Below, in pieces: positions 4,461 through 39,564 of a DNA stretch of 51,777 nt. Made by a program: the position numbers and the translations under genes. Within the stretch, counting starts at the first letter, position 1. Each line of letters begins with the position of its first letter. Below the pieces are notes generated by a model, which was not told the DNA's origin, did no database searches, and worked only from the letters and a program-made list of their open reading frames with translations. The stretch comes from Lachnospiraceae bacterium (GTDB lineage: Bacteria > Bacillota_A > Clostridia > Lachnospirales > Lachnospiraceae), in the NCBI GenBank assembly GCA_028694115.1, contig JAQUUB010000023.1, positions 1-51,777 on the forward strand, read 5' to 3'.

Positions 4461-4477
4461 GGGATCATCTCTTTATC

Positions 4478-5116
4478 TTATTTGACCCATGCTCTATTTT
4501 GGACCGGATCTCCGTGTCCAAAATAAATTCTCCTATTCCCATACCTACTGATTTTATTGGCACTTTCAATCATTTTTTCATAATTATGATATAACAAAGA
4601 AAAAGTCGGATAAAGTATATTCATCAAAGCATCACCCACAATAATTCCTTCATTTTCTATATCTAAACCTATGGATCCATCTGTATGACCTGGCAATGCA
4701 ATAATTTTTGCTTTTACTCCATACTCATTTAAGGAATCCCCTTCTGATAAATAAATGGAAGCATTGAAAAATGGAATTTCATCAAATTGAAATGATTTTA
4801 TTGATAAAAATAATACTATTTTCCCTAATAATGTTTTTGCTGATAGCACTTGTCTCATATTATTACTAATCAATTCTTCATCATTTTTTGATATTGCTAT
4901 TGGAATATTAAGTTCTTGTGAAAGAAAAAGAGCATTTTGACAATGATCCATATGGGTATGTGTTAGCACGATTAGTTTCACATTTTCCTTCTTACAATTT
5001 TCCAAAATTAAATCTCTATATTTAGGTCTTGCTGTATCAATAAGAATGCTACTATTTTCATCTCCAACTATGTAGCAATTTCCATTTCCGCACTTTATTC
5101 TTTTAACTTGAGTCAT
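4478..5116 (-). CDS. Metallo-beta-lactamase-fold hydrolase
   Basis: A 212-residue MBL-fold enzyme with the metal-binding HTHMDH motif (His53, His55, Asp57, His58), the GHTDGSIG histidine, a VGDAL aspartate and a final FGHGDP histidine, so both metal sites look complete. It is of the glyoxalase II-like general group; the substrate is unknown. AAGGAG lies 8 bases before the ATG. It converges with the ABC-F gene (17-base gap) and is divergent from a PadR regulator, which may control it. A promoter GTGACA-17-TATAAT reads towards it. Confidence 0.85.
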   Translation of the reverse strand: MTQVKRIKCGNGNCYIVGDENSSILIDTARPKYRDLILENCKKENVKLIVLTHTHMDHCQNALFLSQELNIPIAISKNDEELISNNMRQVLSAKTLLGKIVLFLSIKSFQFDEIPFFNASIYLSEGDSLNEYGVKAKIIALPGHTDGSIGLDIENEGIIVGDALMNILYPTFSLLYHNYEKMIESANKISRYGNRRIYFGHGDPVQNRAWVK

Positions 5117-5152
5117 ACATATCTCCTTCTTTTTAAACGAATTTCACTTATA

Positions 5153-5181
5153 ATTATAATATTTCAATTTTAATATGTCAC
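5153..5181 (-). promoter_or_regulatory. Promoter of the MBL-fold gene
   Basis: Minus strand: -35 GTGACA (5176-5181), 17-base spacer, -10 TATAAT (5153-5158), ending about 37 bases before the MBL gene start. Confidence 0.55.
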
Positions 5182-5190
5182 TCCTTTTTC

Positions 5191-5219
5191 TTGACATTTT
5201 CTGTTTAATATAATACTAT
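5191..5219 (+). promoter_or_regulatory. Promoter of the padR-like gene
   Basis: Plus strand: -35 TTGACA (5191-5196), 17-base spacer, -10 TACTAT (5214-5219). The -10 lies inside the 14-bp palindrome ATACTATAAAGTAT (5213-5226). Confidence 0.6.
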
Positions 5220-5226
5220 AAAGTAT
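5213..5226. promoter_or_regulatory. Palindrome overlapping the padR -10 box
   Basis: ATACT-ATAA-AGTAT, perfect 5-bp arms, positioned on the -10 element of the padR promoter. A candidate regulator site. Confidence 0.5.
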
Positions 5227-5238
5227 AGCAATAAATGA

Positions 5239-5267
5239 CTTTACAATTATTAATAGTAATTGTAAAG
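5239..5267. promoter_or_regulatory. Inverted repeat, candidate PadR operator
   Basis: Perfect 11-bp arms CTTTACAATTA / TAATTGTAAAG with a 7-base spacer, located between the padR promoter and its ribosome site. The symmetry and position fit an operator for the dimeric PadR protein encoded 26 bases downstream. In RNA it would also form a weak AU hairpin. Confidence 0.6.
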
Positions 5268-5292
5268 AATATGGTTAACAAGGAGATTTCGT

Positions 5293-5805
5293 ATGGCGAC
5301 AATAGATTTGATTGTATTAGGGATTTTAAAGAAAGAGCCCTTAAGTGCATATGACATTCAGAAATTAGTGGAGTATCGGAATATCTCCCGTTGGGTTAAG
5401 ATTAGTACTCCTTCCATCTATAAAAAGGTAATACAGTTAGAAGAAAAAGGATATATTAAAAGCACTATGGTTAAGGAAGGAAAAATGGCAGAAAAAGCTG
5501 TTTATTCTTTAACAGAGGATGGCGAAAAAGAATTTGAAAAATTAATGCTTCAAATCTCTTGTGAACCGATTCATATTTTTTTGGATTTTAATGCTGTAAT
5601 TGTAAATATTGATAGTCTCTCACCAGAAAATCGGAAAGCTTGTTTAGCGGAAATTAAAATTAACGTTGAAAAATTGAAATCATATTTGGAAGAAAATATT
5701 ACTTCTAAAGGAAAAATTCCCGAGATTCCTGATACAGGAAAAGCAGTATTGCAACAGCAATTTATTTTAGCTGAAGCAATAGAAAAATGGGTGAGTACAC
5801 TATAA
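5293..5805 (+). CDS. PadR family transcriptional regulator
   Basis: A 170-residue regulator with the PadR winged-helix start (DLIVLGILKKEPLSAYDIQKLV), recognition region STPSIYKKVIQLEEKGYIKS and wing (EKAVYSLTEDGEKEFEKLM), followed by a helical dimerisation half from about residue 85, which includes a conserved-looking FLDFNAVIVNIDSLS segment. This is the longer PadR layout with a Vir-like C-terminal region. Ribosome site AAGGAG precedes the ATG. It is divergent from the MBL-fold gene, with two palindromes between them, so it probably controls itself and that gene. The ligand is unknown. Confidence 0.85.
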   Translation: MATIDLIVLGILKKEPLSAYDIQKLVEYRNISRWVKISTPSIYKKVIQLEEKGYIKSTMVKEGKMAEKAVYSLTEDGEKEFEKLMLQISCEPIHIFLDFNAVIVNIDSLSPENRKACLAEIKINVEKLKSYLEENITSKGKIPEIPDTGKAVLQQQFILAEAIEKWVSTL

Positions 5806-5806
5806 T

Positions 5807-5963
5807 CCCGTATCCCAAAAAAGCAGTAACTGGTGTCTGTAAAATCAAAAGTTGCCATTGCCTTTTCAATCTTTTCTTCTACACTACGATTTTCCTTCTC
5901 ATAATCAAACGGCCCATGATCAAAAACAATATACTCCGCTTCTGGAACATCAATTAGGAGCTA
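5807..5963 (-). pseudogene. Remnant of an AraC/GyrI-like effector-binding domain
   Basis: On the minus strand, one open frame from an in-frame TAG at 5961-5963 reads LLIDVPEAEYIVFDHGPFDY, then about 30 further residues ending MATFDFTDTSYCFFGIRDY near 5807. This pattern (AEYxVFxHxPF near the start, later a FDF segment) is typical of the C-terminal effector-binding domain of AraC/GyrI-like regulators. There is no start codon for it, no DNA-binding domain, and the frame then runs into the antisense of padR. It is a truncated fragment. Confidence 0.6.
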
Positions 5964-6022
5964 CCACCCTACATTTATTATAAAGAAATAGAGAGATTAC
6001 TGCTTGATTTTACTTGCTGTTA

Positions 6023-6487
6023 TTATATCGAAAATTTTTTTCTTAAGATATCTTGAGATGTCTTAAATTTATCTTTTTCAAATTTTATTCCACAAATGTT
6101 ACATTCTGTATCAGACTCACGCACATTTCGATTGCTACAGTAACCACATTCATATTTTCCATTATTAAGATTTATCTTAACTTTCTTATGACTTTGGTAA
6201 TACTTATCAATCTTCTTATCTTGACTTAATTCTATTGTAAGATGGATTAAAAACAAAATTTCAATGGTTATTCCGACAATAATTGATGTATAAGTAACAT
6301 AAGTTAAAATCTTATTTTGTAAAAAATGATTTAGGCTAAATAATATTAAAGGAATAGGAATCAAAAAAATTAATCCAATGGAAATCACACGACTACCATA
6401 ATTAATTGAGTTTATTTTTTTCATAGTTTTTCCAAACCTGTTTTCTTTTTTCATTAATTCTAAAACAATATCAACAAAATCAAACAA
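6023..6487 (-). CDS. Small membrane protein with C-terminal zinc ribbon
   Basis: No named family recognised. The frame encodes up to 154 residues: a short charged N-terminus, two hydrophobic segments (about residues 33-50 and 61-85, likely membrane helices) and a cytoplasmic C-terminal zinc ribbon, YECGYCSNRNVRESDTEC then NICG, with four cysteines as CxxC...CxxC. The start is uncertain: TTG at 6487 directly follows the stop of the upstream MBL gene, while ATGs at 6454 and 6424 are alternatives without a better ribosome site. It is downstream of, and probably cotranscribed with, the MBL-fold gene. Confidence 0.6.
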   Translation of the reverse strand: MFDFVDIVLELMKKENRFGKTMKKINSINYGSRVISIGLIFLIPIPLILFSLNHFLQNKILTYVTYTSIIVGITIEILFLIHLTIELSQDKKIDKYYQSHKKVKINLNNGKYECGYCSNRNVRESDTECNICGIKFEKDKFKTSQDILRKKFSI

Positions 6488-7300
6488 CTATAGTTCAAAC
6501 TCCATTCCCGTATATAGTTGCTCAATCTGATCCTGTAGCTCTTCCTTCAGAATGGCAAAGGACTTCTTTCCCGTACAATGCCCTGTGAAAACTTTCTCGA
6601 TTCCTGTATCCTTGATTCTTTCTGCTAATGCTCGTACATCTTTTGGTGGTGATTCATACAAATGAAATCCCCCAATTAAGGCATGTATTTTCTTATTTGA
6701 AAATGTGTCAGAAACCTCATTGATAATGTTGTCCGCGCCACCATGAGAACAACTATTAAAAATAACAAGCCCCTTTGGGGTATCAAAAACCAGACTCTGC
6801 TCGTGTACAAAGGAGTCCGGATACCATTTACGGTTTTGTTTTACATACATATTGGCCTTTTTCCCAATCTGCTCCAATCCAGCTGTCTTATGAGGAATTA
6901 AGTATGCACCTGGTATGATCTCATAATCTCCCTCCGCATAAACGATACGATCCTTGTAAACTTCTAACAACCCTTTCCGGATTCCAACATACTTTCCAAA
7001 AAGCCATTTTCTCCAATAACAATTTTCCAAAGAACCATTCCTTATGTAAAAGTTTGCTTTCTGATTATTCTCAAAAAATGATGCCATTCCATCTGAATGA
7101 TCATAATGTGCATGAGACAATATTCCAAACTCTACTTCTTTCAAATTTACATTCATCCTGGGAGCATTTCTTACAAATTTTCCTGTTGCACCCGTATCTA
7201 ATAGAAATTTATGTCCTTCATATTCAATATATATTGATAGCCCCCACTCGTGGAACATCTCATCTTTTGTAATATTATCAATTAGTATTTTTACAATCAT
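6488..7300 (-). CDS. MBL-fold hydrolase of the DHPS-like (MJ0301) group
   Basis: A 270-residue metallo-beta-lactamase-fold protein. The N-terminal LLDTGATGKFVRNA strand-turn, LSHAHYDHSDG (His63, His65, Asp67, His68), NSCSHGGADNI, IGGFHLY and a late FTGHCTG form the set seen in proteins annotated as 7,8-dihydropterin-6-yl-methyl-4-(beta-D-ribofuranosyl)aminobenzene 5'-phosphate synthase-like. The real substrate in bacteria is usually unknown, so I do not assign one. AAGGAG precedes the ATG. The two-cysteine NSCSHGG loop is characteristic of this subgroup. Confidence 0.85.
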   Translation of the reverse strand: MIVKILIDNITKDEMFHEWGLSIYIEYEGHKFLLDTGATGKFVRNAPRMNVNLKEVEFGILSHAHYDHSDGMASFFENNQKANFYIRNGSLENCYWRKWLFGKYVGIRKGLLEVYKDRIVYAEGDYEIIPGAYLIPHKTAGLEQIGKKANMYVKQNRKWYPDSFVHEQSLVFDTPKGLVIFNSCSHGGADNIINEVSDTFSNKKIHALIGGFHLYESPPKDVRALAERIKDTGIEKVFTGHCTGKKSFAILKEELQDQIEQLYTGMEFEL

Positions 7301-7352
7301 TCCATAGACTCCTTTTTATCTTCTGGTAAATATCCCTATATTTAATACGTCA

Positions 7353-7766
7353 TCATTTTTTATTTGGTTTTCGCTTGATTTGCAGCAACTTCTCCATGTC
7401 GTTAAACAGAGATGTATCAACTAATTCAAACATCATCCATTTTCCATCATGGTAGGTTGTTGAAGAATCATAGACTTTTTGTACTTCCATGGAGTAATCA
7501 TCCCTGCTTGCTTCAAATTTTACTCTTTCCTCTTTACCAAAAATAATCATAAAACCAAAAATATTTTCTTTTGCATAGAAAGCACATAAAGATTTCCCAC
7601 CTCTACGATATTTGTACTCATATTTCCATGCTTTACCACCACGATTCCAAAGTTTTTCCATATCATATCTTGCTTCAATTAATTCACTTAACTTAAGCCA
7701 AATTTCGAAAAGGGACGGCCCTATCAATTCAGTCATTTCCTCATTGGTTGGTATTTTTTCAAGCAT
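7353..7766 (-). CDS. DUF3788 family protein
   Basis: A 137-residue soluble protein resembling the DUF3788 family: N-terminal helix with a PT-x-EE-x-x-x-x-IG opening, then a strand containing WKYEYKYRRGGKSLCAFYAKE and a hydrophobic FGFMIIFGKEE strand, then a basic C-terminus. The family's function is unknown. The ATG at 7766 is chosen because AGGGG lies 8 bases upstream; the TTG one codon earlier is less likely. It sits between the MBL gene and the CAT-like gene on the same strand. Confidence 0.7.
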   Translation of the reverse strand: MLEKIPTNEEMTELIGPSLFEIWLKLSELIEARYDMEKLWNRGGKAWKYEYKYRRGGKSLCAFYAKENIFGFMIIFGKEERVKFEASRDDYSMEVQKVYDSSTTYHDGKWMMFELVDTSLFNDMEKLLQIKRKPNKK

Positions 7767-7791
7767 CAATATTTCCCCTTATTCACTTATA

Positions 7792-8421
7792 TTAAAACAT
7801 GTTTAAATCCTGTTGCAAAGAATCTACCAGTTTTCCAATATGTATTCCATCTACGAAAGAGTGATGTACCTGAACGGAGAAAGGAAGAATCATTTTCCCT
7901 TCTCTCTCAAAATATTTTCCCCAATCGAATAACGGCGTAGCATTATCCTTTTTACCAGAGTTCGTATGTGAAATATGTGTGTAGGATACCCATGGCATGG
8001 GTGAAAATTGAAATACATCATTACCTAATGGCCCTGTAAAATACTCTTTTTGATTTTCAGCTTTCTGAGTAGCTACCGCTACATAGTTTTCCATTGTGTC
8101 TTGCATTTCGACATTCACTACCTTAAAAAGCTCGGTGTTCTTATCCAGATAGGTGCAAGCCGTATTAATTCTATCATAAAGTACAATCTGATTGTCTAAG
8201 AAACGATATCGGAACTCTTCTATATTATTTGCACATTTTGAGGCAACAAAAATGAGGGAAAAAGTAAAGGATAAATTCATTTCCCGCACGCATTTCAAAA
8301 ATTTTGTGATATCCAATTCAAAGGTAACACAGAAAGATGGTTCGACACTATTTCGAAATATTTGACAATGCAAAGCTCTTTTCCAATTAGTTTCGTCAAT
8401 TACCCTATATTTATTATCCAT
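7792..8421 (-). CDS. Chloramphenicol acetyltransferase-like protein (CatA type)
   Basis: A 209-residue member of the CAT fold, which transfers acetyl groups from acetyl-CoA in trimers. The C-terminal catalytic motif reads HHSFVDG (residues 186-192), with His187 and Asp191 in the HxxxDG positions of classical CAT and lipoyl acyltransferases. The N-terminus (INETNWKR-like start, CVTFELDIT) and the FSPMPWVSYTH segment follow the CAT pattern. The family position HHAVCDG is changed to HHSFVDG, so it may not use chloramphenicol. Resistance should not be assumed. GGGAGGG precedes the ATG. Confidence 0.8.
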   Translation of the reverse strand: MDNKYRVIDETNWKRALHCQIFRNSVEPSFCVTFELDITKFLKCVREMNLSFTFSLIFVASKCANNIEEFRYRFLDNQIVLYDRINTACTYLDKNTELFKVVNVEMQDTMENYVAVATQKAENQKEYFTGPLGNDVFQFSPMPWVSYTHISHTNSGKKDNATPLFDWGKYFEREGKMILPFSVQVHHSFVDGIHIGKLVDSLQQDLNMF

Positions 8422-23414: not shown

Positions 23415-23460
23415 TTTTCCTCCTCTGCAAATTCAAATTTGTACTAGTCATTACTTAAAT

Positions 23461-23478
23461 AAATATAATGGGCAGTTC
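23461..23478. repeat. Short direct repeat, left copy
   Basis: AAATATAATGGGCAGTTC; 17 of 18 bases match 26000-26017. The pair brackets the DUF5677-like gene, the integrase remnant and the GIY-YIG gene. Confidence 0.5.
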
Positions 23479-23743: not shown

Positions 23744-24709
23744 TTACTCTTGTTTATTATCATTTTCTTTTGGTAACAACTCATCCCAAATATTATTATC
23801 AATAGAGCAAATAATTAAATATTCCATTGTTACATCTTCACTAAAGCTATTTTTATAGTTACTAATAAAAAATCCTAAATACGATAGTACAAACTTAATT
23901 ACAGTATCTATCCCCTCATCACTAGGTGAAGTATTCCAAATACTCTTACCGTTATCATCTTTACGAATATCCAAACTTTGTAATGAAGATAAAAGGCTAG
24001 GATGTACAAAATTACAGGTCAATTTATATGTAGCCTCTTGGCTTTTATACTCTGTTAACTTAAGTAGGTCTGCAAAATTTATTTTTGTCTTATTTTTAAA
24101 TAAAATATTAGCCCATCCGTTATCATATATAAATTCTTTTTCATAATTAAAAGATTTAACGGTTTTACTTATCTCTTTAGTTTTTTCATTGTTATTTAGC
24201 TTTTTTGCTAATATATAGCTCTGGGTATTACAATGTTTGCAAAACCTAGTTGCTAGGTTTTCATCATTTTTGCTAATTATCTCAATATAAACACCCATTT
24301 CATATAGTCTACGAACTCTGGATAATGCACAATCGGAGTATCCACCACTTAGCAAATATAATATTTCCCTAAGCGTTTTAAGATACATCATATATAATCG
24401 TATTTGTGCTTCTAACTTCATAGACGGACTTTCTGATATCATTCCACTAACTTTAGAATAAATTTTTTCATCTGATAAGTAATAATAAATGTACAGTTTC
24501 TTAAGTTTTTCAGCATGTTCATTTTCTCTTATGCCAAATATATCATAAGTAAAACTATCAAGTAATATAGCATGCATCTTTTTATATTCATCTAAAGCCG
24601 TGCTTTGATACTCTTTTTTTATGGTTCCATCTTCATCTGCAATATTGCTTTTGAGTTCATCATATTTTTTAATATAATCTCTGATTTTTTGTCTAATTGT
24701 GCCCTCCAT
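23744..24709 (-). CDS. DUF5677-like protein
   Basis: A 321-residue, helix-rich soluble protein. The segment LLSGGYSDCALSRVRRLYEMGVYIEI and the later LTCNFVHPSLLSSL are the conserved Arg/Glu and His regions of the DUF5677 group; its function is unknown, though such proteins are often found in islands and defence neighbourhoods. The ATG at 24709 is set by GGGAGG upstream. It sits in the accessory island with a dead integrase beside its 5' end. Confidence 0.6.
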   Translation of the reverse strand: MEGTIRQKIRDYIKKYDELKSNIADEDGTIKKEYQSTALDEYKKMHAILLDSFTYDIFGIRENEHAEKLKKLYIYYYLSDEKIYSKVSGMISESPSMKLEAQIRLYMMYLKTLREILYLLSGGYSDCALSRVRRLYEMGVYIEIISKNDENLATRFCKHCNTQSYILAKKLNNNEKTKEISKTVKSFNYEKEFIYDNGWANILFKNKTKINFADLLKLTEYKSQEATYKLTCNFVHPSLLSSLQSLDIRKDDNGKSIWNTSPSDEGIDTVIKFVLSYLGFFISNYKNSFSEDVTMEYLIICSIDNNIWDELLPKENDNKQE

Positions 24710-24765
24710 ATATGAACCTCCCTTAAATTTCATTTATTTCGCTTTTATATTTTTACGACAAAATG

Positions 24766-25069: not shown

Positions 25070-25882
25070 CTAATTCTTATTGTATCCAAACCGTTCATCA
25101 CGCGTCAACAAAACTCGTTTCCAATGGCTCTCTCTGTTTATTATGACATTATCATTAGTAGTTGATTTATAAATATCTAATACCGAGTATCTGAAATTTG
25201 TCTTTATATATTCCATGGGCAATCCCATTAATTCAACATTTCCACCATGGCCATTATCTACATAATTTCTCCATCTGCCAAGCAACATGTCCTTCCCGTA
25301 TGCGGAACCTACATATCTTTTACCAGTCGCTATGTCAGTAATTAAGTAAACACCTTTCTGATTCTCCAAAGCTGTCTTCCAATCTTTTTTTTCAATAATC
25401 CTATTAAGTTCATTCCATGACAAATTTACATTTTCATATCCTGGAAAAATATCGTCCTCAAATATATCATCAATTATTTCCAAGACTATGCATTCTTCAA
25501 TTACACTTTCAGCTTTCCTTATCATATTTTGCGATTTATTTGAATAACCAACAATTAGCCGTCCAAAGTACTTTCTATATTCCTCAAGTGTACGGTACTC
25601 ATATCCAACTGCGTCATACTTTTCTAAATCCTTAGTTATTTCACTTATGTCAAATAACAACCATTTTTTAGTTTCAATCTTTACAAATCCAATTGCAATC
25701 TGGCCTGCTTTAAAAGATTTTGCTTTTGAATAATTCCAAAACTGTCCGTCATACAGTCTTTGATTTCTCTCTTTAAATAATGTAATTGGATCAAAATCAT
25801 CGCCATTACTTTGATTGAAACGAATTTTTATATCCTTCAATTGATCTTTCGAAAAATTCAAAATGTCATTCAATAAAATCAT
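25070..25882 (-). CDS. GIY-YIG nuclease family protein with novel N-terminal region
   Basis: A 270-residue protein. The C-terminal 95 residues form a GIY-YIG nuclease domain: KGVYLI (Tyr179), KRYVGSA (Tyr190), LGRWRNY (Arg203) and NRESHWK (Glu251), so the catalytic set appears intact. The N-terminal 170 residues (DILNFSKDQLKDIKIRFNQS... then WLLFDISEIT) match nothing I know and could be a targeting domain. The ATG at 25882 has GGAG upstream; earlier ATGs do not. It lies between a caspase-like operon and a dead integrase, a context often seen for restriction or defence nucleases. Confidence 0.75.
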   Translation of the reverse strand: MILLNDILNFSKDQLKDIKIRFNQSNGDDFDPITLFKERNQRLYDGQFWNYSKAKSFKAGQIAIGFVKIETKKWLLFDISEITKDLEKYDAVGYEYRTLEEYRKYFGRLIVGYSNKSQNMIRKAESVIEECIVLEIIDDIFEDDIFPGYENVNLSWNELNRIIEKKDWKTALENQKGVYLITDIATGKRYVGSAYGKDMLLGRWRNYVDNGHGGNVELMGLPMEYIKTNFRYSVLDIYKSTTNDNVIINRESHWKRVLLTRDERFGYNKN

Positions 25883-25999
25883 TATGTTCTCCATTCTCAA
25901 TATTACTTGCTTATTGGTACTTGATGTTCCCAAGCCACTCTAAATATCTATATTTTGCAGGGTGGTGCGTTCCCCTATTTACATTTAAAAGTATTTTAT

Positions 26000-26017
26000 A
26001 AATATGATGGGCAGTTC
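26000..26017. repeat. Short direct repeat, right copy
   Basis: AAATATGATGGGCAGTTC; one mismatch to 23461-23478. It lies between the caspase-like gene and the GIY-YIG gene. A short palindrome AATGAACAGTTCATT (26050-26064) follows. Confidence 0.5.
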
Positions 26018-26109
26018 AATTCCTATAAAATAGCTTGTCTAATATAGATAATGAACAGTTCATTAAGCATCTGATTATGATGAAAGATTTTCGCTTGACA
26101 TTTATACTA

Positions 26110-27495
26110 TTATCCTATCGAGATGATTTGTTGAAATTCAACGGTCTTTCCGCTTATTATTGATGAACTGATATAGGTTCCAGTCAGATTACATCCTCTG
26201 TCACCAATAAGTAATTGTACGTCCTTTGGTTGAACGCTGGCAATCGGCATCGAAATGGTCACATTGTATTCACCACACAGCAAAGCGTCTTTATCCTGTG
26301 TAAAGTACTCACTACAAAAACTTCCATACGGTCGAACTTGTGCTTTAGATTGAGCAGAATATTGTAAATCAGTATTCTTCAACCCTATCATAAGATTCGT
26401 ATTTAATGGCAAGCTAGTTATCCCCTGGATTTTGCAACCATCTGAATCAATACTCGGTTCACATAAGCTAAATGTAACATTTATTTCTTTGCCCGAAGGC
26501 TCCAATGCAATTTTAGATGGGTCATGGTAGAACTCTCCCATCACAACGGCTTTATTTTCGTACATCCAGCGATAGTGTTTAAACTCAAACCCAAACTCAA
26601 GTATCTGATGCAAAATATAGGCTTCAAATTCTGCTTTGTCGCTAAAGTGGATACCGCCTGGCTTTTCACTTTTTTGATGGTGATAGATTCTATAGATTGC
26701 TGAAATAGGGTGCTGGTAATGGTTAGATAAGTATATTAGAGTATCTGCTGTACTATTATCCCTTATCACCTGATAAATATCTTCATTTATCTGATCTTCC
26801 GACATTATGTTGAAAAAGAAATCATCGGTAAGGGAGGTGCTTTCCCAAGGATTCTGTGTTCCCCCGCTTCGAATTAATACATCAGAACGAACTTGCTTAA
26901 ATAAATCTTCAATCTTGACATTCGGCTTATCAATGTGATGGAGTAGACAAGCTGTAAATACACTATTCTCATCTGGCGAAGATGATCCAATCGCAACTGT
27001 GTTAGGTGCTGTTGCAAAGGAGATAAATGTACCACGTCCAGATTTTATTTCAGCCAATCCTCCGCTTAGAACATCCTTTGTAAACGACGGTGATGTTCTG
27101 CAAGCATCCAGAATGATGATGTTTGATTTCTGTGGGTTTTCATACATGTAGTCTACAATAATCCTTATCGGAACTAAGCCCGTGTTTATAAGAATTGACT
27201 TATTTGGTGTTGGGTTACAGTCAATTGGAACAATATAGTTTTCGCCATCGATTTGAACACCATGTCCAGAATAGTAAAGAAGGACTGTCGAGTATGAAAC
27301 TGCTTCAACGAGAAACTTACCAATTAAGTCAAACAAATCAGTACGAGTAAAATCATGCGCAGTAAAAGTGTCAAATCCAAGTACCTTCAAAGTTTTCTCC
27401 ACATCAGAGCCATCTTTCTTACATGAAGGTAGTTGATTACAAAACTGATACTTATCATTGGATACTACAAGGGCAAGTCCTCTGTGTATGTTCAC
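26110..27495 (-). CDS. Caspase-family (C14) peptidase with C-terminal helical and beta-rich domain
   Basis: A 461-residue protein. Residues 1 to about 230 form a caspase/orthocaspase domain: GLALVVSNDKYQ opening, LLYYSGHGVQ with His78, the NYIVPIDCN strand, and IIILDACRTS with Cys132, so the His-Cys dyad is complete. Residues 235-300 look helical and 300-461 look like a beta-sandwich with no family I recognise. Bacterial caspases of this kind act in regulated cell death or immune signalling, usually with partners. It starts with GTG at 27495 (GGAGGAG upstream) and overlaps the preceding 65-residue gene (GTGA), so the two are coupled. No signal peptide. Substrate unknown. Confidence 0.85.
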   Translation of the reverse strand: MNIHRGLALVVSNDKYQFCNQLPSCKKDGSDVEKTLKVLGFDTFTAHDFTRTDLFDLIGKFLVEAVSYSTVLLYYSGHGVQIDGENYIVPIDCNPTPNKSILINTGLVPIRIIVDYMYENPQKSNIIILDACRTSPSFTKDVLSGGLAEIKSGRGTFISFATAPNTVAIGSSSPDENSVFTACLLHHIDKPNVKIEDLFKQVRSDVLIRSGGTQNPWESTSLTDDFFFNIMSEDQINEDIYQVIRDNSTADTLIYLSNHYQHPISAIYRIYHHQKSEKPGGIHFSDKAEFEAYILHQILEFGFEFKHYRWMYENKAVVMGEFYHDPSKIALEPSGKEINVTFSLCEPSIDSDGCKIQGITSLPLNTNLMIGLKNTDLQYSAQSKAQVRPYGSFCSEYFTQDKDALLCGEYNVTISMPIASVQPKDVQLLIGDRGCNLTGTYISSSIISGKTVEFQQIISIG

Positions 27496-27689
27496 TCTTT
27501 CTCCTCCTTATTCATGTAGGACATAAGGATGTTGATAACATTGCCACCATCCGTGTCATATTTATCAGCAAGCCGCCACGCTTCACGTTGCAATAACGGT
27601 AATCCTTTATCAAACGGCATTTTCCCTATTTCTTTTAGTTTCCCAGACATTTCTTGGTATATTGCGTTCTCAATTTCATACTTATTCAT
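27492..27689 (-). CDS. 65-residue helical protein coupled to the caspase-like gene
   Basis: No family recognised. MNKYEIENAIYQEMSGKLKE starts a small charged, probably all-helical protein with LPLLQREAWRLADKYDTDGG and NVINILMSYMNKEEKE. A strong GGAGGAG site precedes the ATG, and its TGA overlaps the GTG of the caspase-like gene by four bases, so the two products are likely made in a set ratio. It could be an adaptor, inhibitor or sensor of the peptidase; this is inference from coupling only. Confidence 0.7.
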   Translation of the reverse strand: MNKYEIENAIYQEMSGKLKEIGKMPFDKGLPLLQREAWRLADKYDTDGGNVINILMSYMNKEEKE

Positions 27690-27738
27690 AACTACTCCTC
27701 CACATAAAAGATAATAAACAAAATTAAATACATATGGT

Positions 27739-28017
27739 TTATCCGTAATATTGATTTATCAATTCCATTCTAAATTTCCAATAAGTAACCGTGTTTTGTT
27801 TTTCGTTCTCACGAGCAGTTCTCATCAGTTCGTTATTCGTAAATATCATGCCATGTGTTCGTAAATCATTGAAATCTGCTTTAGATATTGTAGGGTGGAA
27901 TGAATCTAAACCAGACCCAACGTCTTTTGTAATAATGACATAATTCGAACCGTTATCTAAAATTATGTCATTTTCATTTATAATATAGTTTTCATGTCCT
28001 AATCTAATAATAGCCAT
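27739..28017 (-). CDS. 92-residue unknown protein heading the caspase-like operon
   Basis: No family recognised. The N-terminal 45 residues look beta-rich (AIIRLGHENYIINENDIILD, then NYVIITKDVG) and the C-terminal half helical, ending TVTYWKFRMELINQYYG. GAGGTG precedes the ATG. It is 49 bases upstream of the 65-residue gene on the same strand, so it is probably part of the same operon. A promoter-like block lies 220 bases upstream (28230-28271). Confidence 0.65.
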   Translation of the reverse strand: MAIIRLGHENYIINENDIILDNGSNYVIITKDVGSGLDSFHPTISKADFNDLRTHGMIFTNNELMRTARENEKQNTVTYWKFRMELINQYYG

Positions 28018-28229
28018 TTGTTTTTCACCTCAAATTTTAAAATAAAGCAGTTTTTCGTGTTCATAGGGAGAACAATGTTCAGTGGCCGATTTATTTATAA
28101 ATCTATTTACTCGTTGCTTAATTGCTCAAATCTAACATCTCTTTAAGCACGTTAAGCGCAGTTCAGCTAACTTCTCATTATTGCTATAATCCCTACTCAA
28201 CTTCCCATCCTTCACACCACATACTCGAC

Positions 28230-28271
28230 CTAATTATACCACAGTAGACTAAATCCGCCATATTTATTTCA
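28230..28271 (-). promoter_or_regulatory. Promoter module copy B (extended -10)
   Basis: Minus strand TGG-TATAAT (TATAAT at 28233-28238). It is 34/42 identical to copy A at 14129-14170. It reads towards the caspase-like operon and would give a leader of about 200 bases. Confidence 0.5.
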
Positions 28272-28357: not shown

Positions 28358-28849
28358 TTAATCTAATAGGTCATTCAAACAAATAATTTTACTGCCTTTA
28401 CTTTCATAATAACGTAGCATTTCGTCAATTTTCCTTTTATCATAACTGGTAATGCAATCGGATAGAACATGAACGTTATAATTTGCTTTGCGTAAGTTAT
28501 AACACGTTGATTTAACACAAGCAACAGCATCTGCTCCTGCTATGTAGAAATCACATATTTCATTTTTACTAATAAAGTCTGTAAATTCTTCACAGCTTAA
28601 TGCGTTTCCTTTGTATTTTGTAAAAATATTTTTGGATACTATTTTCAAGTCTGGAGCTAATTCAGCTCCATAGGTATTGGTTTTAAAAGTCCTCGTACCG
28701 GCTGATAAATTTTCATGCCTAATATAAATAACATGAATACTATTTTTAATTGCCAGGTCAATAGCTTTATTAATATTGCCAATAACTTCCTTGTAATTCT
28801 TTGTTATGTCATTTTGAATATCGATGATTACTAAGGCTTTTTTCTGCAT
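28358..28849 (-). CDS. Isochorismatase-family cysteine hydrolase (nicotinamidase-like)
   Basis: A 163-residue cytoplasmic hydrolase. The catalytic triad positions are visible: Asp in ALVIIDIQNDI, Lys in FTKYKGNAL and Cys in AGADAVACVKSTCYNLRKANY. HVLSDCITSYD follows, as in the family. Members hydrolyse nicotinamide, isochorismate or ureido compounds; the exact substrate is not clear. GGAGG precedes the ATG. It is divergent from a WYL-domain regulator, which likely controls it. Confidence 0.85.
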   Translation of the reverse strand: MQKKALVIIDIQNDITKNYKEVIGNINKAIDLAIKNSIHVIYIRHENLSAGTRTFKTNTYGAELAPDLKIVSKNIFTKYKGNALSCEEFTDFISKNEICDFYIAGADAVACVKSTCYNLRKANYNVHVLSDCITSYDKRKIDEMLRYYESKGSKIICLNDLLD

Positions 28850-28909
28850 GGTATTTCCTCCTGATCGGTAGATTGATTTGTTTTCTTTTCTTTTTTACTA
28901 TACCTCACA

Positions 28910-28935
28910 ATTGTTGACGCCAGTATGGCAACAAT
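28910..28935. promoter_or_regulatory. Inverted repeat between isochorismatase and WYL genes
   Basis: ATTGTTG / CAACAAT arms with a 12-base spacer that itself contains GCC/GGC. It lies over the -35 and spacer of the WYL-gene promoter, a good place for autoregulation. Confidence 0.6.
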
Positions 28936-28942
28936 CTATAAT
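28914..28942 (+). promoter_or_regulatory. Promoter of the WYL regulator gene
   Basis: -35 TTGACG (28914-28919), 17-base spacer, consensus -10 TATAAT (28937-28942). Confidence 0.7.
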
Positions 28943-28974
28943 AATAAAAAGTAATTTTGGAAGGCGGATATCAG

Positions 28975-29907
28975 ATGAAAGTTGACAGGCTTGTTAGCAT
29001 TATTATGATACTCCTTGATAAAAAGCGTATAGGCGCACAGGAGTTAGCAGCTATGTTTGAAGTTTCACCCCGCACAATCTACCGAGACATAGACGCGATC
29101 AACATGGCGGGGATTCCTGTTCACGGATCATCGGGAGTGGGCGGCGGCTTTGAAATTATGCAGAAATACAAGATTGATAGAAAGGTTTTTTCAACTACCG
29201 ACCTTTCCGCTATCTTGATGGGGCTCTCCAGTCTTTCCAACATGATACGAGGTGATGAACTAGTAAACGCCCTTGCGAAAGTCAAGAGTTTTATCCCCGC
29301 CGACAGAGCGAAAGACATTGAATTAAAAGCAAATCAAATATATATAGATTTAAGTCCGTGGATGGGCAACACGAACATACAGCCATATTTAGAAATTATC
29401 AAAACAGCATTACAGGAAAGCAAGCTACTTTCGTTTGAATATGTAGCCCACCACGGAAATAAGACCACACGAACAGTTGAACCGTATCAGCTTGTATTAA
29501 AAAGTAGTCATTGGTATTTGCAAGGGTATTGCCATAAAAGAAATGATTTTCGCTTATTCAGACTATCCCGCATATCAAGCCTACAAATACAAGAGGAATT
29601 TTTTACGCCACGAGATTATCAAAAACCGCAGTTAGATTTTGCTGATGTTTTGGTAACAATGCAAACAAAAATCAAAATTCGTATTCATAAATCTGTCATG
29701 GACAGGGTACTTGATTATTGCACTTATGAACACTTTTCGCCAGACGGTGATGAGCATTACATTGTTAATTTTCCTTTCATAGAGAACGAATACTACTACC
29801 ATATTCTTTTCAGTTTTGGGGATAAATGCGAGTGTTTAGAGCCGTTACATATCCGCACAGAAATGAAGCGTAGAATACATGATATTGCTACCCTATACGA
29901 AAGTTAG
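28975..29907 (+). CDS. WYL-domain transcriptional regulator (YafY/DeoR-type HTH)
   Basis: A 310-residue regulator: N-terminal helix-turn-helix (RLVSIIMILLDKKRIGAQELAAMF... SPRTIYRDIDAINMAGIPV, then GVGGGFEI wing), a central WYL domain (LLSFEYVAHHG... VEPYQLVLKSSHWYLQGYCH, DFRLFRLSRIS) and a WYL C-terminal extension. I start it at the ATG at 28975, preceded by GGAAGG; the frame is open from 28957. WYL proteins sense small ligands or nucleic acids. It is divergent from the isochorismatase-family gene, with an inverted repeat over its own promoter. Confidence 0.9.
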   Translation: MKVDRLVSIIMILLDKKRIGAQELAAMFEVSPRTIYRDIDAINMAGIPVHGSSGVGGGFEIMQKYKIDRKVFSTTDLSAILMGLSSLSNMIRGDELVNALAKVKSFIPADRAKDIELKANQIYIDLSPWMGNTNIQPYLEIIKTALQESKLLSFEYVAHHGNKTTRTVEPYQLVLKSSHWYLQGYCHKRNDFRLFRLSRISSLQIQEEFFTPRDYQKPQLDFADVLVTMQTKIKIRIHKSVMDRVLDYCTYEHFSPDGDEHYIVNFPFIENEYYYHILFSFGDKCECLEPLHIRTEMKRRIHDIATLYES

Positions 29908-34416: not shown

Positions 34417-35487
34417 TTATTTCCCTTTATTTTCAGATATAATTACAAGTACATTTCCATTTACGATTTTTCCTGCCCCTATTAATCCATCTGGAGAATG
34501 TAAGTCGATTTCTGTCTTCTTTACAGAGGAGCTTGTAATTGATTTTCTTTGATTTTTGCTTGTACTTTTATTTGTAGATACGCTAGTTTTTTGTTGTGAA
34601 CCTGTATTATTTGCTTTGGTTGTATTCTTTTGTCTATTGCTTTGATAGGTCTTTTCATCAATCCCCATCTGCGTTACCAGTTTTTTATTACAACCCTCAA
34701 ATGCATGATCAGCGATTTTCACTGGATCACCTTCCATTCCTACATAAGTTAGTTTTCCGCAATTCTGAAATGCATAATCCTGTATTTCTGTAACACTTTC
34801 TGGCAGAAAAACCTGTATCAGACTCACACAATTAGAAAAAGCATAATTAGGTATTTCTTTCACCTGATTAGAAACTCTTACTTCTGTTAAAGAACCGGTT
34901 TTCCAAAAGGCATATTCCTCAATCTCCTTGACAGAAAATGGCATTGTGTAGGTCTCGGCTTTCTTACCTGGCAGATATTGAAGTAAACGTGTAGAATCAT
35001 AATTATAAAGCACCCCATCATTTAGAAAGAAATTTGTATTTCTAGAATCAATCTGCAAGGTGCTTAAAGAGGAACAGCCTGCAAAAGCACCTGCACCAAT
35101 TTCGTTAACGGATGCTGGAATCATGACTGAGTTCAATTTCTCACATCCTGCAAACGCACTTCTTCCAATGGATGTAACTCCATTCTCTACCGTTACCCGT
35201 GCAAGCCTTTTACAATTATAAAATGCACTATTTCCAATTGTCTTTACAAAAGAAGGGATTGAAACTTCCGTAATATTGGAACCAGAAAAAGCCTCTGGTG
35301 CAATGGAAGTGACGCCACTTGGTATCGAACACGAGCTACCCTTCCCCGAATATTTTAATAATACGGAACCTTTGATATCAAAATCAGACGTACCGCTTTT
35401 GGCAAGCACATCTGATTTTGGAATTAGAATCATAATCAAGGAGACAAGAATCAAAGCTCCCAAAAAAGAAATCAGTATCTTTTTCAT
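34417..35487 (-). CDS. Secreted BspA-type leucine-rich repeat protein
   Basis: A 356-residue extracellular protein: N-terminal signal or anchor helix (KKILISFLGALILVSLIMIL), then about eight LRR_5 repeats of the form A-F-x-x-C-x-x-L-x-x-V-x-I-P-x-x-V-x-x-I (for example AFAGCEKLNSVMIPASVNEI), then a Ser/Thr/Lys/Asn-rich stretch (about 285-325) and a short C-terminal strand region. No sorting signal is seen. Its ATG overlaps the TGA of the large LRR gene (ATGA), so the two are made together. A surface-binding role is likely; the ligand is unknown. Confidence 0.87.
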   Translation of the reverse strand: MKKILISFLGALILVSLIMILIPKSDVLAKSGTSDFDIKGSVLLKYSGKGSSCSIPSGVTSIAPEAFSGSNITEVSIPSFVKTIGNSAFYNCKRLARVTVENGVTSIGRSAFAGCEKLNSVMIPASVNEIGAGAFAGCSSLSTLQIDSRNTNFFLNDGVLYNYDSTRLLQYLPGKKAETYTMPFSVKEIEEYAFWKTGSLTEVRVSNQVKEIPNYAFSNCVSLIQVFLPESVTEIQDYAFQNCGKLTYVGMEGDPVKIADHAFEGCNKKLVTQMGIDEKTYQSNRQKNTTKANNTGSQQKTSVSTNKSTSKNQRKSITSSSVKKTEIDLHSPDGLIGAGKIVNGNVLVIISENKGK

Positions 35488-38400
35488 TGTACTACTTTCT
35501 CTGGCTCTTTTTTAATAAAGAATAAGATTGACAGTGCAGCAAGGCCAATTACAAGAAACCATTTTGGATGAATAGGATCTCCTGTCTTTGGTGATGCATC
35601 GAGCATATCTCCAGCTGACAAGTTTGTAACATCTACATATAATCCATATGGTGAAAAATGAGTTGCTGTAAATGTAACACATGGTGTTCCATCGATGGTA
35701 GAAAATCTGGTTCCTAATTCCTCCAGCTGATTGTTTGCAACTGCTCCCGCTTTATTATTACCACCATACAGTGCAAGCTCCTCTGGTATCGGAATGGTTA
35801 AGGTAACTGTTACCCCTACCGGATTATCTATTTTTGTTGTACCTGTAGAATCATATAAACTAATGTCCATTGGATAATATCTTAAATTATCTAAATTACC
35901 ATATTTTGCTTGTAAAGCTGCTTCAAACGCCTTGGTTGCCTCCTCGGTATCTGATATCTTAATTACATAATTATCTGTGGTACCCTCAACACTACCAGAA
36001 ATCAGATCTGTATTTTCAAGTCCTGAATTTCCAGAGTCCACCTGCGCATTTCCATTCGTGCCAGCTCCACCTGTTGTTGTGTTTCCACCCGTACTTGTTA
36101 AAGACGCAGCATTTGAGGATGTTGTGGAAGACGACGTTTTACTTGATGAACTTGAACTTGAGCTGGAGCTGGAGCTTGAGCTTGTGCTTGTACTCTTACT
36201 TGTGCTGGTACTCTTACTTGTACTCGTGCTCTTACTTGTGCTCGTACTCTTACTTGTACTCGTTGTTTTCGATGTAGTTGATGAAGTAGATGACGTTGAA
36301 GTGCTTGAACTACTCGAAGTAGTCGACCCACTGGATGTTTCATTTTCTTCTACAAATGTATAATTCCATTTATTTGCAAAGCTCTGTGCAGTAGTTCCTA
36401 CTACACCATAAACGGTTAAAGATTTTACTCCCTGCGCTGCGGTATCACTGATATATGTTGTTTCCTTGGGAATATGGATTTCAGCAAGTTTTGTATTTGC
36501 AAACGCGCCCTCATCAATTCGTTTGACGGCAGAGGAAAGTTTGGCAATGACTACGCTGCTATCCCTGAAGCAATCTTGTGGAATTACAGATACTCCATCT
36601 GTAAATGTAATCTGACCTAAATTTTCTAAGGAAGCAAAAGCCTCTGACTTCAATTCAACAATCGAATTGGGAATCACATAGCTTGCATTCGCAGAAGACC
36701 CTGGTAACATTTCAACAATACTTGTTTTACTTCCGCCAGTAAGTCCATAAATAATACCATCGGTACATGCAAATTTACTATTATTTGCTGCAATCGTAAC
36801 ATTGGCAAGACTCTTACACTTCAAAAAGGGAGCTTTTCCCATACTTGCTACGGTAGCTGGAATAATGACATCATTCAAATTGGTACAATTCTGGAATTCA
36901 TGATCCTTAAGTGTTACAACTTCGCCTGTATTCACTGTTTTAAGATTCTCATTCCCATCAAATAAACTTGTACTAGAGCTACCACTTGTTTTATATCCAA
37001 ATGCATCAATTCCTGTTGGAATTACAAGATTTTCAACAGTAGTATCATAATCGATTAAGGTATTATAACCTGTGGTACTATCATGCTTCACTTTATAAAA
37101 ATCACTATCATTTACAAAGGTAATGTCATTCGCCATTGCATAAATGAATGGCTTGGAATCTTTTGAAACCGTTCCATACATAATAAAGTCAGAATTAACT
37201 CCTTTAAATGCGTTGGCTCCGATGGAAGTGTTCAAAGAATCAATGGTTGCTCTAGATAAATTTTGACATCCATTGAATGCATCACTTGCAATCGTTGTTA
37301 CCGTTTCTGGTATCACTACACCTACGATGCTTCCATTTCCCTTAAATACATCCGTAGAACCTGTAATTGTTTTGACCTCAATATCACCAATCGTCTCTGG
37401 AATTGTTATGTAATTACTCGTTAACATCAGTTTAGAAACATCTGCAAACGTTATTTCTCCACTACTATTTACACGGTAGTAATTTTCCTCATACTCATTA
37501 TCCATCGTCTGGAAGCAAATACCAAATGCCTTTGCATAACGATAGGAATCATCCGTCAGATTACCCTTAATACAAAAATCCCCATTATTCATATCCGTAA
37601 ACTGATTCGTATCCCCCATTATGGTATTTCCCGGAACGGTGAGGCAGATCATATTCTTACAATCTTGGAATGTGGTTGGGTGCAAATTAGCTAAGTTCTT
37701 TGGTAAGGTAACATATTCAAGTCCAGAACAGCCCTCAAATACAGAGCATCCCTCAACTGCAGAAGCATCAATGGATCCTATTGATTCTATTGATTCTGGG
37801 AATTCAACAGTTTGTAAATTTGTGCAGTTTCTAAATGTACCCTGTGGAATATTTTTTAGTAAGGTATCACTCTCAAATTTAATCGTAGTCATTCCGCTAC
37901 AGCCGTCAAATACATAAGTACCCATATCACCTAATTTACTTGGTATCGTAATTGTCCTTAAAGCAGAACAATTTTGGAATACACTACCACCCATTGTTAA
38001 TAAGCCCGTAGGCATTGTAATGCTTTGTAGCTTGGAACACCCTTTAAATGCCTCGTACTTAATTTCTTCTATGGAGGTACCAAGTGTTACCGTATTTAAA
38101 TTGGTACATCCGCTAAAAGTCCCTTTTTCAATAACCTTTATATTTCCATTTGGTATCACTACTGAGCTGATCATACAATCCCTGAATGCATATTCACCAA
38201 TACTTGATATGGTAGAGGGCATCGTAAACGTTCTTAAATTATAGTCTCCATCAAAAACACTATCACCAATTGTTGTTAACATACTATTTGTTGTAACAGT
38301 TGATAGATTCGTACAACCCTTAAATGCATTATCTCCGATTTCTTCACATGCCGTAGGAAGTTTGACTGTTGTTAATCCTATGCTGTCCATACATGCATTT

Positions 38401-38765
38401 GCCTGAATCCCCTTAATATCTTTTGGTGTATCGGATTTATCAGCAGTCGTATAATACTGATTTGGAATATTCAATGTCTTGATTTGATCCTTAGAGGTAT
38501 ATAGCGCCCCATCCAGTGGACTTGTATCATTTGTGTATCCTGCTAAATATCCATTTGACGTAATATAATAGATGATACCGTCGTCTGCATGGTATTCAAC
38601 ATCATACGCACCTACTGCGTCCTCTTCCATTTCAAAATCATTGCTGGCCTCTTCTGCCTGAATGAAATCAGAAGGAATCGCTGCGACGATCAGGGCTGTC
38701 ACCATGAGCAATGCGGATATGGTTCTTCTGATACTCTTTCTTAATAACTTTTTCTTCTTCCTCAT
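35484..38765 (-). CDS. Large LRR_5 (BspA-like) cell-wall protein with SPKTG sorting signal
   Basis: About 1093 residues from the ATG at 38765 (AGGAG 8 bases upstream). Order: signal peptide (RKSIRRTISALLMVTALIVA), some fifteen or more LRR_5 repeats to about residue 815, a Ser/Thr/Lys low-complexity spacer (about 820-905) with repeated KSTSTS units, a beta-rich domain (about 930-1045) and a C-terminal sorting signal SPKTGDP, hydrophobic helix WFLVIGLAALSILFF and positive tail. SPKTG is a known type of recognition site for class B sortase in C. difficile, and a class B sortase is encoded 22 bases upstream. It is therefore probably anchored to the wall by its neighbour. Confidence 0.92.
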   Translation of the reverse strand: MRKKKKLLRKSIRRTISALLMVTALIVAAIPSDFIQAEEASNDFEMEEDAVGAYDVEYHADDGIIYYITSNGYLAGYTNDTSPLDGALYTSKDQIKTLNIPNQYYTTADKSDTPKDIKGIQANACMDSIGLTTVKLPTACEEIGDNAFKGCTNLSTVTTNSMLTTIGDSVFDGDYNLRTFTMPSTISSIGEYAFRDCMISSVVIPNGNIKVIEKGTFSGCTNLNTVTLGTSIEEIKYEAFKGCSKLQSITMPTGLLTMGGSVFQNCSALRTITIPSKLGDMGTYVFDGCSGMTTIKFESDTLLKNIPQGTFRNCTNLQTVEFPESIESIGSIDASAVEGCSVFEGCSGLEYVTLPKNLANLHPTTFQDCKNMICLTVPGNTIMGDTNQFTDMNNGDFCIKGNLTDDSYRYAKAFGICFQTMDNEYEENYYRVNSSGEITFADVSKLMLTSNYITIPETIGDIEVKTITGSTDVFKGNGSIVGVVIPETVTTIASDAFNGCQNLSRATIDSLNTSIGANAFKGVNSDFIMYGTVSKDSKPFIYAMANDITFVNDSDFYKVKHDSTTGYNTLIDYDTTVENLVIPTGIDAFGYKTSGSSSTSLFDGNENLKTVNTGEVVTLKDHEFQNCTNLNDVIIPATVASMGKAPFLKCKSLANVTIAANNSKFACTDGIIYGLTGGSKTSIVEMLPGSSANASYVIPNSIVELKSEAFASLENLGQITFTDGVSVIPQDCFRDSSVVIAKLSSAVKRIDEGAFANTKLAEIHIPKETTYISDTAAQGVKSLTVYGVVGTTAQSFANKWNYTFVEENETSSGSTTSSSSSTSTSSTSSTTSKTTSTSKSTSTSKSTSTSKSTSTSKSTSTSSSSSSSSSSSSSSKTSSSTTSSNAASLTSTGGNTTTGGAGTNGNAQVDSGNSGLENTDLISGSVEGTTDNYVIKISDTEEATKAFEAALQAKYGNLDNLRYYPMDISLYDSTGTTKIDNPVGVTVTLTIPIPEELALYGGNNKAGAVANNQLEELGTRFSTIDGTPCVTFTATHFSPYGLYVDVTNLSAGDMLDASPKTGDPIHPKWFLVIGLAALSILFFIKKEPEKVVQ
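36180..36263. repeat. 18-bp tandem repeats coding the Ser/Thr spacer of the LRR protein
   Basis: About 4.5 imperfect units of 18 bp (ACTTGTGCTCGTACTCTT type, plus-strand view), encoding repeated KSTSTS. It is next to runs of GAGCTT/GAGCTG coding poly-Ser. Such tracts change length by slippage, so the spacer may differ between strains. Confidence 0.75.
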
Positions 38766-38787
38766 CTGTATATCTCCTATTGAATTT

Positions 38788-39564
38788 CTAATTAATTCTC
38801 TTGCATACAACAACAAAACGTCCGTCTTCTTCTTCATAGTCACAGGTAGACAAGGTTAATAACTGATCCCCATACTCTGCTTTTACACCAGTATCATACA
38901 AGGATAACTGGGCCATTTCTTTTAATCCTGATTCAAATTCCTGTTCTGAATTTACGGTAATAAATTGATAATATTTAAAAACAATTTCTGCTTCACTATA
39001 AATTCTGGAAGGAAACGCATACATCACCTCATAGACTCCTTCTTTATAAATAGTATCAAACTTTATTTGTTTATGTTTCTGATAAAAGCTTTCACTCTTG
39101 TAATGATCTAGTTGTCCAAACATCTCACCCGATTTCATATTATGACCATATATAATAAGATTGTCGCTGGGTGCAATTGGATCGCATTGATCCTCCATGA
39201 AAAGAGTTCCGTTCCGGTCTTCTTTCTGGTCGAAATTATGATTTAAATAAAAAGAGCCTTTTCCATTTACAGACTTCATAACTGGATAGTCAATATTTGT
39301 ATCGTCAATTTTAAGCCATCCAATTAGGTTTTTGTTCTTATCTAATAAAGTTTTATATTGATCAAGGACAATTAATTCCTCGTCTTCATTTGTTGGTATT
39401 GTCTCATATACAGAAACCGGATCTTTTTGATTTTCCTTGATTTCAGATAAATTGCCAAAATCCTTTGAACTCTTGCCAGCCATTGCATAATAATAAAATA
39501 AATAGGCAAAACAGCTAATTACAATGATAACAAGAAACCAAGTAAAAATATTTCTTTTGTTCAA
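38788..39564 (-). CDS. srtB: Class B sortase
   Basis: A 258-residue membrane-anchored transpeptidase with an N-terminal membrane helix (IFTWFLVIIVISCFAYLFYY) and the sortase core: NGTLFMEDQC, LIIYGHNMKSGEMFG with His141, and TLSTCDYEEEDGRFVVVCKR with Cys241 and Arg249. The TLSTC and GRFVV context fits class B. It starts with TTG at 39564 (AAGGAG 7 bases upstream). The downstream LRR gene carries the matching SPKTG signal, so this looks like a dedicated enzyme-substrate pair. Confidence 0.92.
   Translation of the reverse strand: MNKRNIFTWFLVIIVISCFAYLFYYYAMAGKSSKDFGNLSEIKENQKDPVSVYETIPTNEDEELIVLDQYKTLLDKNKNLIGWLKIDDTNIDYPVMKSVNGKGSFYLNHNFDQKEDRNGTLFMEDQCDPIAPSDNLIIYGHNMKSGEMFGQLDHYKSESFYQKHKQIKFDTIYKEGVYEVMYAFPSRIYSEAEIVFKYYQFITVNSEQEFESGLKEMAQLSLYDTGVKAEYGDQLLTLSTCDYEEEDGRFVVVCKRIN

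Follow-up and report, generated by a model that had tools for sequence, protein, structure and literature searches.

A caspase-family peptidase and its 65-residue partner on an apparently mobile, integron-like cassette from a Lachnospiraceae bacterium

To what kind of system does the caspase gene of this DNA belong, and how did it come to lie here? The whole stretch analysed, called the window below, comprises 51,777 nucleotides of a Lachnospiraceae bacterium (contig JAQUUB010000023.1, assembly GCA_028694115.1). The original prediction, made from the letters alone, had taken three minus-strand open reading frames (ORFs) at 26110-28017 for a possible three-component caspase system of cell death or anti-phage immunity. 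All three ORFs are present. That observation largely holds and its interpretation is partly supported: the operon proper has two genes, and its peptidase, judged from sequence, appears to be a previously undescribed version of the bacterial caspase systems. The two-gene operon appears to be one unit of an integron-like array and to move as such among Clostridium-like bacteria. The ORFs are the following:

26110..27495, minus strand: caspase-family peptidase, 461 amino acids (aa), identified by ORF, PF00656 match, alignment and model; residues 1-233 form a paracaspase-like domain, about 234-337 a mainly helical region and about 338-461 a β-rich region.
27492..27689, minus strand: acidic three-helix partner, 65 aa, identified by ORF, relatives, model and alignment.
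27739..28017, minus strand: accessory ORF, 92 aa, not kept as part of the operon after study of the ORF, its relatives and a Desulfosporosinus locus (L002).

At the level of sequence the caspase domain assignment is certain. The PF00656 match covers residues 5-227 with 115.5 bits (E 3.8e-33), the Pfam cut-off being 21.4 bits. The predicted dyad, His78 in SGHG and Cys132 in DACR, is intact and is invariant in nine of nine aligned sequences, the window's own counted. Among relatives of solved structure, the MALT1 paracaspase (Peptidase C14) is the closest to this domain, and the likeness extends to the sequence of the peptidase domain, its fold and its dyad. Unlike MALT1, the window protein has a bacterial operon partner, and no MALT1 match was detected for its C-terminal half. 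A search with residues 232-461, in which the candidates were proteins of similar length only, returned nine matches, all carrying a caspase domain, in addition to the protein of the window itself. One of the ten sequences, P0134, is truncated and was excluded, leaving nine full-length caspases including that of the window. The C-terminal half had been described as unrecognised, and the β-rich region indeed has no identifying match in Pfam or the PDB. It is β-rich in a low-confidence model, and its Ig-like nature could not be demonstrated from the model, Pfam or the PDB. The last 125 residues or so have weak relatives in a Polaromonas surface-adhesin E family protein (30 of 89 residues, 34%), an Aeromonas plasmid ORF and a clostridial lipoprotein-like ORF (E 1.1e-5). 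Since these proteins look exported, the module is not specific to immunity. By analogy, it may have a binding role such as the Ig-like domain has in MALT1 or in CanA, the caspase of the Canu system.

The 65-aa gene is coupled to the caspase gene by a 4-nt GTGA overlap (27492-27495), in which the caspase start GTG meets the stop TGA of the small gene. The identical overlap is found in the Desulfosporosinus metagenome-assembled genome (MAG), where the locus is about 71% identical; 53 of 65 residues are shared between the small proteins and 315 of 460 between the caspases. The non-synonymous divergence (dN) is 0.11 and the synonymous divergence (dS) 2.0 for the small gene, which is under strong purifying selection at the protein level; for the caspase gene dN is 0.22 and dS is not computable. 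The small protein is helical, as predicted, with three confidently modelled helices (residues 3-21, 26-43 and 48-64; pLDDT 92.8). It is acidic (isoelectric point 5.1) and, with a best 19-residue hydropathy of -0.09, has no membrane helix. The protein collection holds 124 relatives of it, the best 120 of which were listed. Neither it nor the 92-aa protein, both said to fit no family, scored above cut-off in Pfam, NCBIfam or PADLOC, the one annexin match (E 0.065) being below it.

Conservation beside caspase genes separates the two small genes. The 65-aa/caspase pair was read directly in the window, in Clostridium sp. KNHs205 (L001) and in the Desulfosporosinus MAG (caspase P0129). Four further caspases, P0126, P0128, P0130 and P0133, were matched to the 65-aa relatives P0009, P0007, P0011 and P0013, a pairing that takes longest contigs of exactly equal size to be the same contig. 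The 92-aa protein has four relatives (80-96% identity), and its gene is missing from the Desulfosporosinus operon. The core is therefore two genes and not the proposed three, and the comparison marks the 92-aa gene as a passenger of the window version that lies outside the core.

How the operon may travel is indicated by its boundaries. The following features delimit it:

25995..28186, minus strand: putative mobile cassette, 99.27% identical to the KNHs205 unit and unrelated to it on both flanks.
28169..28186, minus strand: RE, array start site TAGCAATAATGAGAAGTT, 17 of 18 bases as in both KNHs205 array starts.
25998..26016, minus strand: LE, cassette end site AACTGCCCATCATATTTAT, downstream of the caspase gene.
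23459..23477, minus strand: second LE, AACTGCCCATTATATTTAT, which closes the next cassette.
28230..28256, minus strand: extended -10 promoter-like sequence TGTGGTATAATTAG, read by eye just outside RE and pointing into the array.

The match to KNHs205 stops sharply at either end in unrelated DNA. Within it, the 92-aa and 65-aa genes are identical in the two genomes, and 11 of 1383 bases differ in the caspase gene. Two related sites mark the ends, termed RE (TAGCAATAATGRGAAGTT) upstream of the operon and LE (AACTKCCCATNATATTTAT) downstream of the caspase gene; where both sites take their commonest form, RE ends with 13 bases that are the reverse complement of the 13 with which LE begins. From base composition only, about 4e-5 exact LE patterns are expected by chance in the window, and both window sites are without mismatch. 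When up to three mismatches were allowed, shuffled sequences gave a mean of 0.21 matches, and the two observed were reached in 2 of 100 shuffles. The promoter-like sequence (extended -10 at 28233-28243) resembles GTGGTATATTTAG in the KNHs205 leader and was not listed by a consensus promoter scan. A partial extra site core, GGATGGGAAGTT, lies at 28199-28210 just outside RE and is perhaps a remnant of another cassette.

The same sites recur in KNHs205 (6.4 Mb). LE was found there eight times at up to one mismatch, on one strand only, against none for the reversed-pattern control, and seven of the eight sites fall within 8 kb. None was found at this threshold in six other genomes, one of which (G1157) had a single control match. 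When up to two mismatches are allowed, nine LE sites divide the array (L044, contig C5, about 783.7-794.7 kb) into nine tandem, same-direction cassettes of one to three genes each; a single RE and the caspase operon stand at its head. A second, smaller array, 132 kb off on the same contig (about 659.7-662.6 kb, L054), has an exact RE and three LE with 0 to 3 mismatches. A 71-bp leader is common to both arrays (95.8% identity) and stops precisely at the last RE base, past which the sequences diverge. By eye, this leader contains promoter-like elements, TTGAAA in one array and TTGAAG in the other, followed by 17 nt and TATATT. In the Desulfosporosinus MAG, the first 17 of 18 RE bases lie 40 bp ahead of the 65-aa gene, and LE-like sites with three mismatches each follow the caspase gene and the next gene. 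The positions of RE and LE thus make the operon the first cassette in all three genomes.

Is this platform an integron? The attC sites of integrons carry the consensus boxes RYYYAAC and GTTRRRY. RYYYAAC fits only 1 of 16 distinct LE sites (20 rows, 4 of them duplicates), a site with three mismatches to LE and with GTTRRRY 73 nt further on, so that the attC boxes are not a property of LE. Seven sites folded as single strands gave no significant attC-type hairpin (z from 0.26 to -1.46, the best case being equalled by 16 of 200 shuffles). Inspection by eye of the ORFs flanking the KNHs205 arrays revealed no integrase, the rest of that genome not having been searched for a recombinase; about 1.5 kb past the far end of the second array there is a 457-aa transposase-like ORF. 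Because the sites lack both boxes and hairpin and no integrase was recognised by the arrays, we call the platform integron-like rather than an integron. The layout itself is that of an integron, KNHs205 having tandem same-direction cassettes with one site each behind a common leader. As described in PMC8618304, integron arrays and CALINs share with this platform tandem cassettes of mostly one or two genes, a proximal leader with a promoter-like sequence and, for CALINs, the lack of an integrase alongside; unlike attC, the site of the window and KNHs205 is a 19-bp conserved sequence.

An exact RE copy was also seen on an IMG/VR contig (L059, 13755-13772), about 100 bp past the last gene of a phage-like run. 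By eye this gene resembles a lysis gene; after the RE copy an ORF runs off the contig, and there is no LE within three mismatches on it. Arrays may sit at prophage ends too.

The 65-aa protein is found with other partners. Distant relatives, gathered by profile searches (A1, A4 and A5), are 25-34% identical to it, and a wide alignment of 12 sequences shows P25, D27, W38, G48 and V51 to be invariant and F26 nearly so. Each non-caspase partner listed here is encoded immediately downstream on the same strand. In a Peptococcaceae MAG (L003) it is a 967-aa TOTE primase-helicase-PLD protein (PF22548, E 3.6e-105), an effector unrelated to the caspase, and the small gene (7998-8160) is broken by an internal duplication and a stop. 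In L018 the partner has 271 aa and a weak DnaJ tail (E 0.0013, below cut-off). In two genomes (L017 and L016) the relative overlaps by 4 nt the gene of a 290-aa membrane protein with a hydrophobic N-terminal half (best 19-residue hydropathy 2.8 in the L009 copy). Finally, L015 has a 265-aa protein about 4 kb from a tyrosine integrase. In all, five kinds of downstream gene were counted across eight genomic places. These varied downstream genes suggest that the 65-aa gene is the fixed first member of pairs whose second gene varies, and its product has the look of a constant partner to varying effectors. No description of the 65-aa family or of the cassette sites was found in the open-access literature searched.

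Among tested systems, Canu is by analogy the closest precedent. According to PMC12799240, the MALT1-like caspase CanA forms a soluble complex with its partner CanB and activates a nuclease. The window operon likewise encodes a MALT1-like caspase with an extra domain after the caspase domain and a separate co-encoded partner, in a defence-island setting. It differs from Canu in that its partner is a 65-aa three-helix protein, the Ig-like character of the β module could not be demonstrated and no metallo-β-lactamase (MBL)-fold nuclease such as CanC was recognised in the cassette. The EACC1-caspase system (PMC7159879) also pairs a short constant gene at the 5′ end with a caspase gene, whose place is sometimes taken by another enzyme. 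EACC1 is however described there as a membrane protein with a single conserved transmembrane helix, which the 65-aa protein does not have, and the window caspase scores 47.9 bits against the EACC1-associated caspase model NF047832, below the cut-off of 140.

From these comparisons, a two-gene module of regulated proteolysis may be proposed. The 65-aa protein would be translated just ahead of the caspase, so that the two are made together, and would bind it as an inhibitor or adaptor, in the manner of CanB and CanA or of an antitoxin and its toxin. Infection or a similar trigger would relieve or assemble the complex, and the caspase would then cleave host or effector proteins, leading to growth arrest or cell death that protects the population. 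As no nuclease was recognised in the cassette, the caspase may itself be the executioner, or may cleave a host protein. The whole operon would move as the first array cassette, behind the leader with its promoter-like sequence, and we infer that a recombinase drives this movement.

The surroundings of the operon were predicted to be defence-like, and two of the genomes bear this out. The second window cassette, which follows from the LE at 25998 and 23459, holds two genes:

25070..25933, minus strand: UzuA (Uzume) homologue, 287 aa, with a C-terminal GIY-YIG domain.
23744..24733, minus strand: DUF5677 protein (Pfam), 329 aa.

The UzuA match (PADLOC, E 4.4e-56, residues 16-287) belongs to the gene that adjoins the operon. 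Near the Desulfosporosinus copy there are an RdrB-like adenosine deaminase (E 2.7e-32) and a protein kinase. The overlapping frames of 315 and 567 aa at 3894-6483, upstream of the caspase pair, include the deaminase, only the 567-aa frame matching the RdrB model; the kinase follows at 6627-7787. The integrase said to lie beside the operon was not found: a Pfam scan of 39 window proteins, among them the nine main neighbours at 19.2-29.9 kb but not about a dozen other ORFs of at least 100 aa, turned up no integrase or recombinase. There is no MBL-fold pro-nuclease among the scanned neighbours in the window, KNHs205 or the Desulfosporosinus MAG, and the two MBL-fold genes found in the window lie about 19 and 21 kb from the operon. 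The setting was also called AT-rich, which is true of the adjoining 22-26 kb region (GC 0.27-0.32) but not of the operon itself (0.36-0.37, like most of the window).

We lean modestly towards a paracaspase-like immune or abortive-infection protease that is controlled by its small partner and spread on the integron-like platform. The most likely role of the operon is that of a phage-defence or cell-death switch. Several observations tell against this reading. The cassette has no recognised gasdermin, MBL-fold nuclease or other obvious executioner, and the overall quality of the caspase model is poor (pLDDT 56.8). The caspase pair was read in three genomes only, and three of the nine full-length caspases (P0127, P0131 and P0132) could not be linked to a 65-aa relative. 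Few of the surveyed genomes carry the 65-aa family (1 of 397, 1 of 25, 3 of 341, 3 of 398, 2 of 118, 2 of 149 and 3 of 249, in sets that overlap and contain genomes known beforehand to carry it), and LE occurs at up to one mismatch in one of seven tested carriers, KNHs205. Ten other proteins of the KNHs205 array were scanned. Four have no Pfam family and the other six comprise a DUF5710 protein, a HAD hydrolase, GrpB, two GNAT acetyltransferases and a methyltransferase, so that array membership alone does not imply defence. The presence of such genes in the arrays, together with the exported and non-immune look of the relatives of the β module, would suit a non-immune protease of stress response or protein quality control, carried by chance with metabolic accessory genes. 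We consider this improbable, given the defence neighbours in two of three carriers and the rarity and recent transfer of the operon.

Antitoxins are usually less conserved than the 65-aa family. This strong conservation, and the fact that the family is common to unrelated partners, makes it unlikely that the pair is a toxin-antitoxin module in which a labile 65-aa antitoxin restrains a toxic caspase and which mainly maintains the array or host element instead of sensing phage. Such a module would nonetheless account for the order of the genes, small gene first, for the 4-nt overlap, for the small acidic helical protein and for the mobile cassette; two-ORF integron cassettes are known to include such pairs (PMC8618304). 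The partner diversity that speaks against an antitoxin would be expected if the 65-aa protein were a signalling adaptor or sensor common to several effector systems, a constant component in the EACC1 sense, with the caspase as one interchangeable effector. The invariant P-D-W-G-V core and the 124 relatives of the small protein, against nine of the caspase C-terminal half, point the same way. However, each non-caspase partner is known from one or two genomes, the small gene is decayed in the TOTE case and three of the four non-caspase partners have no PADLOC model match. A shared adaptor is thus a serious possibility that we would stop short of calling probable.

Tentatively, the two lines may be combined. 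The 65-aa protein would be an undescribed constant component controlling interchangeable effectors (caspase, TOTE helicase-primase, membrane protein, DnaJ-tailed protein and others), and its caspase version would have spread among Clostridia by a non-canonical integron-like platform, with a promoter-bearing leader and 19-bp non-attC end sites, that would depend on an unknown recombinase. For bacterial caspases, which share their enzyme family with the proteases of animal cell death, few partners and triggers are so far known; a minimal system of two genes, one of them for a 65-residue partner, would lend itself to simple experiments on how a caspase is controlled. Should the small protein prove to be a shared switch, its sequence could serve to find more immune effectors in Clostridia, and if the cassette sites are recombination sites, they point to integron-like gene capture at sites that the standard attC consensus would miss.

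Two further groups of genes were observed in the window. An isochorismatase-family gene and a divergent WYL regulator occupy 28358-29907; the pair is found in two other genomes at 79-84% DNA identity in unrelated surroundings, and may therefore also move. The other group, at 34417-39564, is a row of genes for two BspA-type leucine-rich-repeat proteins (of 356 and 1119 aa) and a protein with a sortase domain.
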